A stretch of 64,000 bases of DNA from Saprospiraceae bacterium. Lineage in GTDB: Bacteria > Bacteroidota > Bacteroidia > Chitinophagales > Saprospiraceae. Numbering within the stretch: the stretch's first letter is position 1; each line of letters opens with the position of its first letter. Below the pieces are notes generated by a model. That model was not told the DNA's origin, ran no database searches, and saw only the letters and a list, made by a program, of their open reading frames with translations. The position numbers and the translations under genes were made by a program. The stretch is from the NCBI GenBank assembly GCA_018057925.1, contig JAGPCT010000012.1:1-64000 (forward strand). The letters run 5' to 3'. Positions 41,501 to 49,858 of this stretch are shown here, in pieces.

Positions 41501-41508
41501 TATTTTTG
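41501..41508 (+). promoter_or_regulatory. -7 box of the mraZ/dcw promoter
   Basis: TATTTTTG matches TAnnTTTG; the expected start of RNA is near 41515, giving a leader of about 34 bases. The -33 region has no clear TTG and is occupied by the MraZ boxes. Confidence 0.55.
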
Positions 41509-45542: not shown

Positions 45543-46991
45543 ATGGAATTAAATAAATTGTTGAATCTGGCCGGACTAAAAATGTCTGACAATCGGGGAA
45601 ATGCTGAAATAAGCGGCATCGCCATCGATAGTCGTGCGGCTATTCAAGGGAGTTTGTTTGTTGCCATTCAAGGAAATGAGGTAGATGGTCATCGATTTAT
45701 ACAAAGTGCCATCGACAAAGGTGCAGTGGCTGTTGTATGTGAAAATGAAGTTGAAATCAATGGAGATGTTGAATTAATAATTGTTCCTGACAGTCATGAG
45801 GCGGCAGGTAAATTGGCTTCTGCATTTTATGGATTTCCGTCCGAAAAGCTTCAACTGGTAGGCGTCACGGGTACCAATGGAAAGACTACTACAGTGACTT
45901 TATTGTATCAGTTGATGATGGAAATGGGAAAGAAATCCGGCTTGATTTCCACGGTAGAGAATAGAATAGGTGACAAGGTTTTAGCATCTACGCATACTAC
46001 ACCGGATCCGATTAGTTTGAATGCATTACTAAAGGATATGGTTGATTCCGGTTGTCAATATGCCTTCATGGAAGTGAGCTCACATGCGGCGCATCAAAAA
46101 CGGATTAGTGGGTTGAAGTTTGCAGGAGCGGTATTTACCAATATTTCTCACGACCATTTGGATTACCACAAGACATTTGACGAATATATCGCTGCCAAGA
46201 AGTCATTTTTTGACGGTTTAGCAAAAGGAAGCTTTGCACTGAGCAATATAGATGACAAGCGAGGTGAAGTTATGCTACAGAACACTCCGGCTGACAAGTA
46301 TTATTACAGTTTGAGGAGAAGTGCTGATTTCAAAGGTAAGATTTTTGAAAATACCTTAGAGGGTTTGGCTATGGAGCTTGACGGCGTACATGTTCACCTT
46401 AGGTTAATCGGAGAATTCAATGCTTACAATGCATTGTGTGTTTATGCGGTAGGCAGGTTGCTGGGTTACGATAAAGAAGATGTATTGACTCAGTTGAGCG
46501 CAGTGCCGGGAGCGATAGGTCGATTTGAGACCATCAGAGATGTAGAGCGAGATGTACTATTTATAGTGGATTATGCACACACTCCGGATGCACTCGAAAA
46601 GGTATTGAATACTATTCACGATATGAAGAAGGATGCCGGAGTAATTACAGTTGTTGGGTGTGGCGGTCATCGTGATAAAGAAAAAAGGCCTGTAATGGGT
46701 GCTTTGGCGGCGAAACTAAGCAGAGAAGCAATATTTACAGATGACAATCCAAGGGATGAAAGCCCGGAAGACATTACTGGTGCAATGGTGGCGGGATTAA
46801 CTATTGATGATAAGGCCAAAGTATTAATAATCAATGATAGAGTGCAGGCTATTCGCACAGCAGCAAAGTTGGCTCAAAGAGGAGATATCATATTGGTGGC
46901 GGGAAAGGGTCACGAGACCTATCAACTCGTCAAAGATAAAGTGTTGGAAATGGATGATCGAAAGATCATAAAAGATATAATAGGTAAATAA
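45543..46991 (+). CDS. murE: UDP-MurNAc-L-Ala-D-Glu--meso-diaminopimelate ligase
   Basis: A 482-residue Mur ligase that adds the third amino acid of the peptidoglycan stem. The three Mur domains are present, with the ATP loop GVTGTNGKTTTVTL (about 103-116), EVSSHAAHQKR, the carbamylated-Lys region and the C-terminal DDNPRDESPEDI. The DNPR motif is characteristic of enzymes specific for meso-diaminopimelate. The stop codon overlaps the ATG of a 43-codon ORF (TAATG), then comes an unusually long gap before mraY. Confidence 0.95.
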   Translation: MELNKLLNLAGLKMSDNRGNAEISGIAIDSRAAIQGSLFVAIQGNEVDGHRFIQSAIDKGAVAVVCENEVEINGDVELIIVPDSHEAAGKLASAFYGFPSEKLQLVGVTGTNGKTTTVTLLYQLMMEMGKKSGLISTVENRIGDKVLASTHTTPDPISLNALLKDMVDSGCQYAFMEVSSHAAHQKRISGLKFAGAVFTNISHDHLDYHKTFDEYIAAKKSFFDGLAKGSFALSNIDDKRGEVMLQNTPADKYYYSLRRSADFKGKIFENTLEGLAMELDGVHVHLRLIGEFNAYNALCVYAVGRLLGYDKEDVLTQLSAVPGAIGRFETIRDVERDVLFIVDYAHTPDALEKVLNTIHDMKKDAGVITVVGCGGHRDKEKRPVMGALAAKLSREAIFTDDNPRDESPEDITGAMVAGLTIDDKAKVLIINDRVQAIRTAAKLAQRGDIILVAGKGHETYQLVKDKVLEMDDRKIIKDIIGK

Positions 46992-47122
46992 TGATTTACC
47001 GGAAAGAAGTAGGTTCTATTTTTAAAAAGGTTGGAATGAACAGGGAAGGCAGATTAGATTCTGGCTGTCACATCGGTTCTAGTGCCATCACAGGCTATTT
47101 GCCCCCTGTTCTCCTTTTTTGA
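46991..47122 (+). CDS. Possible 43-residue micropeptide between murE and mraY
   Basis: An ATG that overlaps the murE stop codon (TAATG, the same arrangement as ftsL-ftsI) opens a 43-codon frame ending at TGA 47120-47122. The peptide starts with a basic segment (MIYRKEVGSIFKKVG), has one Cys and ends in the apolar run YLPPVLLF. I know no such family. The second half of the frame coincides with a long hairpin, so the conserved object may be RNA rather than protein, and the overlap may be chance. Confidence 0.3.
   Translation: MIYRKEVGSIFKKVGMNREGRLDSGCHIGSSAITGYLPPVLLF
47038..47120 (+). other. Hairpin with U-run in the murE-mraY gap
   Basis: GAACAGGG (47038-47045) pairs perfectly with CCCTGTTC (47104-47111), GGCA just inside pairs with TGCC, and a run of six T bases follows at 47115-47120. 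The enclosed 50 bases can form further short stems. The shape is like an attenuator or a small structured RNA at the only sizeable break in the dcw operon. Confidence 0.5.
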
Positions 47123-47219
47123 TTGAATCAACAATTAGTAATCTTAAAATCAACCGCCAAGAAACCTAATAGAATGTATCTGAAAAGGTGCATCCTCATA
47201 ATATGTTATAGAAAGCATT

Positions 47220-48479
47220 ATGTTGTATTATTTATTTGAATACTTATATAAAGATCTGAATATATCCGGTACGGGTGTATTTCGCTTTATTACTTTCCGC
47301 GCAGGATTGGCAATAGTGCTTTCATTGCTTATTTCTATAGTCTTTGGTAAAAAAATCATCCAGAATCTTCGCAACCGGCAAATCGGTGAAACCGTCCGTG
47401 ATTTAGGGCTTCAAGGTCAAAAGGAAAAAGAAGGAACTCCTACTATGGGAGGAATCATCATTGTCTTAGCCATTGTTATTCCTTGTCTTTTAGTAGCTCG
47501 CTTAGACAATGTCTATATCATTTTGATGCTTATCTCGACACTGTGGTTGGCATTGATTGGCTATATTGATGACTATATCAAGGTGGTAAAGAAAGATAAA
47601 GAAGGTCTGAAAGGTATCTTTAAAATAATAGGTCAGGTTGGATTGGGATTGTTTGTTGCCATTACAATGTTAGTGAGCAATGATGTCGTGATACGGATGA
47701 CTCCCGAGGAGGCTTCTCTGGGTAATTACAAGATAGTAAAGACGGTGATGGTCGAAGATCCGAATGTAGAAGGTAAAGTAGAGCAATTGGTATATGCCAA
47801 AGCCGCCATAACCAATGTTCCGTTCTTCAAAAATAATCAACTTGATTACGGTAAAATATTGGATGTATTTTCTTCAAATAGCCAAACTTTACTTTGGATT
47901 GTATTCGTACTTTCTGTAGTCTTTATCATTACTGCCGTGAGCAATGCTGCAAATATAACAGATGGTATTGACGGCTTGGCAACAGGTGTGTCGGCGACAA
48001 TAGGTGCTGTTTTGGCGGTTTTTGCTTATTTGAGTGGTAACTCGATATTTGCCGATTATCTCAATATTTTCTTTATTCCCAATAGTAGTGAATTGGTGAT
48101 ATTTAGCGCATGTTTTATTGGTGCATGTACAGGATTTCTTTGGCATAATTCTTATCCTGCAAGAGTATTTATGGGAGATACAGGAAGCCTTACTTTAGGC
48201 GGAATTATTGCTGTTTTAGCGATCGTATTGAGAAAGGAATTATTGCTGCCATTGTTGTGTGGGATATTTGTTGTAGAAAATTTATCTGTCATTATACAGC
48301 GATATTATTTCAAATATACCAAGAAAAAATACGGTGAGGGGCGAAGGGTGTTTCTAATGTCTCCTATCCACCACCATTTTCAAAAGCAAGGTTATCATGA
48401 AGCTAAAATAGTTACCCGATTTTGGATTGTGTCCATCATCTTAGCTGTAATGACCATATTAACCCTTAAAGTGAGATAA
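47220..48479 (+). CDS. mraY: Phospho-N-acetylmuramoyl-pentapeptide-transferase
   Basis: A 419-residue polytopic enzyme that makes lipid I from UDP-MurNAc-pentapeptide and undecaprenyl phosphate. About ten membrane helices; signature residues are in [11 protein letters not shown], the catalytic Asp pair of [24 protein letters not shown] and the HHHFQKQGY loop near the C-terminus. It is longer than E. coli MraY (360) because of an insert of about 50 residues after the fourth helix (about 155-215), which is usual in Bacteroidota. murF, which often precedes mraY in other phyla, is absent here. Confidence 0.95.
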
Positions 48480-49790: not shown

Positions 49791-49858
49791 ACAAATTTTG
49801 GGCTGAAGATTAAGGTTAGGTATTAAAAATTGGTCTTTAAGAAAACTACAACTACAAC

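Follow-up and report, generated by a model that had tools for sequence, protein, structure and literature searches.

The gap between murE and mraY in the dcw operon almost certainly holds a conserved structured RNA element, judging from the comparison of related genomes. The element consists of a near-invariant leader of 25 to 27 nt, followed by a hairpin that is conserved in structure and variable in sequence, and then by a run of U residues. Its homology, its structure (through covariation), its fixed location and its terminator shape are all shown by comparative evidence. Its function, unlike its existence, is not near certain. The reading that we favor, to which we would give nearly an even chance, is that the element acts in cis as a mid-operon intrinsic terminator read out by a leader-recognizing factor, that is, as an attenuator splitting the dcw operon.

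The murE-mraY gap in the window

The window, a stretch of 64,000 nucleotides from a Saprospiraceae bacterium, contains murE at 45543..46991 (plus strand; NCBIfam TIGR01085 and NF001126, both above cut-off) and mraY at 47220..48479 (plus strand; TIGR00445, above cut-off). The 228 nt between them (46992-47219) form the widest gap within the dcw cluster among the listed open reading frames, and the runner-up (49791-49858) measures 68 nt; an earlier note on this DNA had called it the only large gap of the operon. The cluster also has mraZ, rsmH, a penicillin-binding protein, murD, an FtsW-like protein, murG, murC, and ftsZ. A TATTTTTG box at 41501-41508, upstream of mraZ (41549), is a plausible candidate for a sigma-A type promoter serving the whole operon. 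The absence of murF from the cluster is accounted for by an 824-aa frame with a Mur ligase domain on another contig (L005:1165-3549, on G000:C85; read as 795 aa at the locus level), which by eye looks like a MurF-alanine racemase (MurF-Alr) fusion. A 5S rRNA at 1-85 is cut by the window start.

The whole element was matched at 47010..47118 on the plus strand (24.5 bits; E = 0.0049 over the 64 kb, against 2.4 for the second-ranked match) by R1, a covariance model built from 16 sequences that were picked for sharing one form of the 3' arm. The match begins with the 5' leader (47010..47034), which reads TAGGTTCTATTTTTAAAAAGGTTGG in the window and TAGGTTCTATTATCATTCTCAGGTTGG in the family. The outer stem pairs a 5' arm at 47038..47045 (GAACAGGG) with a 3' arm at 47104..47111 (CCCTGTTC) through the eight perfect pairs that the earlier note had described, and in the predicted fold it is lengthened by an inner stem of GGCAGAT (47048..47054) and ATTTGCC (47097..47103). 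Six T residues at 47115..47120 form the U-run, which has five in each of two congeners. A second small hairpin of the form (A/G)TGTA TCTGAAAAG. T.CA(T/C) lies at 47174..47193, about 27 nt before mraY and on the same strand; it is kept in all three congeners with TCTGAAAAG as its loop, and one of its closing pairs changes from A-U to G-C among them.

The earlier note had also placed a 43-codon frame in the gap, overlapping the murE stop by TAATG and ending at the U-run. These coordinates (46991..47122, plus strand) hold: the frame begins within TAATG and closes with a TGA (47120-47122) that shares its first base with the final U of the run. Such frames are common, with 91 open reading frames of at least 40 aa in 18 kb, so this one alone is not beyond chance. 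The same is true of the fold of 47030-47122, which has a z score of -1.89 and was equaled in stability by 8 of 200 shuffles. The case that the window element is real therefore comes from its relatives rather than from the frame or the fold of the window alone. ARAGORN found no tRNA or tmRNA, a repeat search within the genome matched only the locus itself well, and Rfam 15 at the gathering score returned only the 5S rRNA for the window. Searching 12 loci against Rfam at E values up to 5 or 10 gave no credible match on the element, and the family leader and hairpin had none even at an E of 10.

Conservation and distribution of the element

Two genomes of the same genus (G001 and G002) keep the gap, with DNA identities of 74% and 78%, and keep the stem as well. 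The earlier note had named the opposite outcome, unrelated gaps with neither frame nor stem, together with unchanged RNA coverage, as the one that would count against it. The stem reads GAACAGG/CCTGTTC in the window and GGACGGG/CCCGTCC and GAGCAGG/CCTGCTC in the congeners, which amounts to three compensatory changes among the three congeners with no break in the first seven pairs; the eighth pair is lost. TAGGTTCTATTTTTAAA and GGTTGGAATG are identical in all three, and 5 to 6 U follow the stem. R1 scored 18 bits on G001 and found nothing on G002 up to an E of 5, which makes the window genus a divergent branch, joined to the family through the window copy and G001. Its homology with the rest of the family is carried by the shared position, TAGGTTCTATT, AGGTTGG, the stem, and the U-run.

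In carriers from other genera of the family, the gap contains the leader followed by TTTTAACAG, a long hairpin whose loop is often AAAG or AACG, and then U. At an E of 0.01 or less, R1 matched 107 of 298 family genomes in 43 of 112 genera. Among 395 genomes of the class it matched two, both known members of Saprospiraceae, and none outside that family. A 20-nt core pattern, allowing up to two mismatches, was found in 111 of the 298 family genomes, against 6 places for a reversed-pattern control. Most carriers are named as Saprospiraceae, the cultured Portibacter lacus and P. marinus among them. When 37 family genomes were sampled regardless of the motif, 17 had the element as scored by a motif or model match (G002 by homology to the window only), with gaps of 103-409 nt and a median of 155. 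The other 20 had no motif or model match and a median gap of 71 nt, several being under 25; two of these non-carriers (L035 and L039) look by eye like diverged copies. Because about half of the sampled family genomes lack a match, the element seems dispensable over evolution. Outside the family, 17 of 19 murE-mraY gaps measured 49 nt or less. In G023 and G024 the gap contains an unrelated open reading frame of 154 and 161 aa, respectively, instead of the element (L210:644-1108 and L209:523-1008), and some genera (loci L078, L079, L080, L125-L129, and L136) have gaps of 470-1150 nt with further uncharacterized sequence around the element.

Covariation across the family shows the structure. An alignment of 112 copies, 110 of them distinct, has changes on both sides of 13 of the 14 stem pairs, in 174 cells, and 95.4% of cells were paired compared with 86.7% in shuffles, none of 500 shuffles doing as well by any measure; these figures lean upward because the copies were aligned to the model and are related to one another. 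(For one intermediate alignment, folds with a late start or odd length were dropped beforehand.) Sliding the partners by 1-3 columns reduced pairing to 30-46%. A MAFFT alignment of the 16 seed sequences agrees, no shuffle out of 500 equaling it on four of the five measures. Leader consensus columns are 92-100% identical in the 112 copies, and many stem columns only 45-80%. G-U pairing recurs in the stem (for example, 25 cases of U-G at one pair and 11 of G-U at another), and this favors RNA over a DNA palindrome. The hairpin also has the shape of an intrinsic terminator: of 109 family elements, 94 have four or more U in the 8 nt that follow the stem, a count made on minimum-energy folds that still include some wrong hairpins (e.g., L105 copy 0, L150, and L151) after copies with N, copies with under 100 nt, and identical copies were dropped. 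The terminator-shaped hairpin that the earlier note had seen in this gap is borne out and appears to be kept by selection across genera.

The element also keeps a fixed place in the genome. Every opened core-pattern place with no mismatch or one lay beside murE and/or mraY. Thirteen places with two mismatches fell elsewhere, near the level of the reversed-pattern control (6); another two-mismatch place, G113:C121, was left out of those opened. A scan of named GTDB genomes gave at least 116 stretches, 80 of them shown as loci. Here 85 of the matches listed were classed, and 69 of them were in loci with murE or mraY, namely, 68 with a 9-nt spacer plus L242, which belongs to the window genus; the remaining 16 of the matches listed had other spacer lengths and none was in a murE or mraY locus. 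Of 12 further model hits that were opened, 11 adjoin murE and/or mraY, the exception being the weak hit L344 (E = 0.0039). We take the 13 two-mismatch places and L344 as chance rather than as elements away from murE-mraY. With one locus per genome, the element is not a dispersed riboswitch. In 56 of 98 genomes no more than 15 nt separate the murE stop from the beginning of the leader, and in 7 the UAG of the leader is itself the murE stop, but the distance reaches 614 nt in others, so coupling to murE termination is no general rule.

Attenuation as the favored reading

In 34 of 100 loci, mraY begins within 30 nt of the end of the hairpin, and no promoter is apparent. TAnnTTTG, the consensus of the Bacteroidota -7 box (PMC7366714, PMC9723704), occurred after the hairpin in 3 of 45 long gaps compared with 7.1 in shuffles and in 0 of 53 short gaps compared with 1.3 (gaps with N were dropped, which kept 98 of 100), nor was it enriched before the element. 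We therefore rejected a promoter inside or after the element. Given the closeness of the hairpin to mraY and the lack of promoter enrichment, transcription of mraY-ftsZ probably passes the hairpin, and a terminator-shaped hairpin that must be passed suggests an attenuator or a partial terminator. Because the hairpin varies in sequence and the leader does not, the specific information probably resides in the leader. An invariant leader cannot keep pairing with variable arms, which argues against a switch made of RNA only and for a factor that binds the leader. Single-sequence folds of 19 gaps gave the hairpin plus weak local pairs only, with no conserved anti-terminator fold found.

Under the favored attenuator reading, the dcw operon would be transcribed from a promoter before mraZ, and RNA polymerase would terminate in part at the element, so that one 5' transcript would stop just past murE. 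A factor, either protein or RNA, that recognizes the leader would change the read-through, and the read-through would set the supply of mraY-murD-ftsW-murG-murC-ftsQ-ftsA-ftsZ relative to mraZ-murE. The decision would be expected to come from leader binding and not from two alternative folds. The earlier note had proposed an attenuator setting the ratio of murE to mraY-ftsZ; the hairpin is placed where it could do so, but the micro-ORF coupling that went with the proposal did not hold up. A wider formulation, which we regard as possible and put forward tentatively, is a Saprospiraceae RNA family with a leader of about 27 nt that is read by a dedicated factor and either gates mraY-ftsZ or releases a cell wall sRNA, in tandem in some lineages.

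The ribosome-mediated attenuators of trp and his place a terminator hairpin ahead of the genes they regulate. The element has the terminator hairpin in common with them, but it lies mid-operon, and neither a leader peptide nor a competing anti-terminator fold was seen. The 3'-PT regions of Flavobacterium psychrophilum are described as partial, leaky intrinsic terminators (PMC9723704) and are likewise from Bacteroidota; as presented there, however, they are classes drawn from a transcriptome rather than a single conserved family of RNAs that share an invariant leader. The mraW RNA motif of Actinomycetales, a candidate structured RNA among 104 motifs in the report that lists it (PMC2864571), is linked to a dcw gene like the element but differs in phylum and, by its name, in gene. 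We found no description of a murE-mraY element in the literature searched, and the main texts of the two Bacteroides thetaiotaomicron transcriptome papers searched do not name mraY or murE. The element seems to be a previously unlisted RNA, confined to murE-mraY of Saprospiraceae and without an Rfam match.

Most of what is known about the balance between peptidoglycan-precursor enzymes and division proteins within the dcw operon comes from E. coli and B. subtilis, and few regulatory RNAs are known in Bacteroidota. The element may decide how much of the cell division operon gets transcribed, and under the wider formulation above it would be a previously unseen control point, with the upstream half of the dcw cluster on one side and the genes for lipid precursors and division on the other. 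It offers a concrete, small, and deletable candidate for control at one fixed point of dcw in a large environmental family, and the cultured Portibacter species make it testable.

Alternative readings

The element could instead be an intra-operonic or 3'-UTR-derived sRNA of about 100 nt that acts in trans, with the leader as its pairing seed and the hairpin as its terminator, released through early termination after murE and processing. We consider this doubtful, although the anatomy fits exactly, with a long conserved single-stranded 5' part and a 3' terminator. SroC, which comes from within the gltIJKL operon of Salmonella and E. coli, is made in a like manner: transcription stops early, at a Rho-independent terminator behind the first gene (PMC9438474). 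SroC belongs to another phylum and operon and is described as an Hfq-dependent sponge of GcvB after RNase E cleavage, whereas the element is known from sequence and has tandem copies. Closer in phylogeny are six intra-operonic sRNAs of B. thetaiotaomicron that end at a terminator or a processing site (PMC7366714); they too lie between operon genes, but they were defined by RNA-seq. The same report indicates no obvious Hfq or ProQ homologue there, which may call for longer seeds. Against an sRNA, the element was never seen away from murE-mraY, though sRNA genes can move, and no conserved extended complement to the leader was found. Exact 13-nt complements of the leader outside the element, in 35 genomes, numbered 8 (reversed control, 8) and 7 (control, 2), with no place widely shared by contig position; shorter seeds would escape such a search. 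The lack of a general excess of 13-nt complements weakens the sRNA reading. Within murE-mraY loci, 9-nt complements numbered 21 compared with 43 in the control.

Tandem copies bear on several of the readings. In two genera (g141 and g75), among 100 chosen loci that are nearly all known carriers, the gap contains 2 to 5 or more head-to-tail copies, some of them partly under assembly N, and each copy has its own leader, hairpin, and U-run; the final copy in L105 stops roughly 18 nt short of mraY. Such arrays, directly ahead of an essential gene, are hard to square with strong serial terminators. For an sRNA they would look like an increase in dosage, and they would be easier to tolerate if the element served processing or stability, with the hairpin shielding the 3' end of the murE mRNA once it has been cleaved or blocking decay of the mraY half and the leader serving as a cleavage or binding site. 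A mid-operon hairpin with read-through into mraY would suit that role also. We nevertheless find it unlikely, since the U-run, needless for a plain protective stem, is kept in so many elements, and 27 invariant nucleotides are long for a nuclease site.

The direct repeats, together with a leader that is invariant at the DNA level, might suggest a DNA site for binding or recombination, or a cruciform. This is very improbable in view of the common G-U pairs, the orientation fixed relative to murE-mraY, and the U-run after the stem. Two further comparisons, with the boxA and attC motifs, were dropped. A nut/boxA-like reading of UUUUAACA beside the hairpin was rejected because it is not kept in the window genus and other members, and an integron attC-like site, raised by the tandem repeats, was rejected because the copies preserve the U-run but not the R-box letters.

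A micro-ORF that couples attenuation to translation, or a gene for a small peptide, is more improbable still, even though the window's frame overlaps the murE stop. Both the start and the frame are gone in the two congeners: they have TAAAG or similar where the window has TAATG, and the frame is interrupted by a stop in G002 and by a shift in G001. Among the 109 elements, an ATG-started frame is open from the leader to the end of the hairpin in 0, 4, and 7 for the three frames, at most 11 in all and divided between two frames. The 43-aa peptide has no Pfam match. The comparison of murE-mraY gaps in relatives that the earlier note had proposed yielded covarying stems and no frame kept with codon-type substitutions. 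We rejected the leader peptide and judge the 43-codon frame to be a chance frame without a role in the element.

That the gap is the remnant of a lost gene, either murF, as also raised earlier, or a GxxExxY nuclease-like gene, is scarcely credible despite the resemblance of 47003-47066 to a PF13366 gene from another family (77% over 64 nt; E = 5.9e-4 per genome, with 100 genomes searched), because 43 genera keep the element and its stem varies through compensatory changes, as a decaying gene would not, and because a MurF-Alr-like frame exists on another contig. The matching PF13366 gene (L048:1476-1862; GxxExxY type, PD-(D/E)XK) is flanked by direct repeats of the type GCAGATNACGCAGATAANCGCAGAGA.
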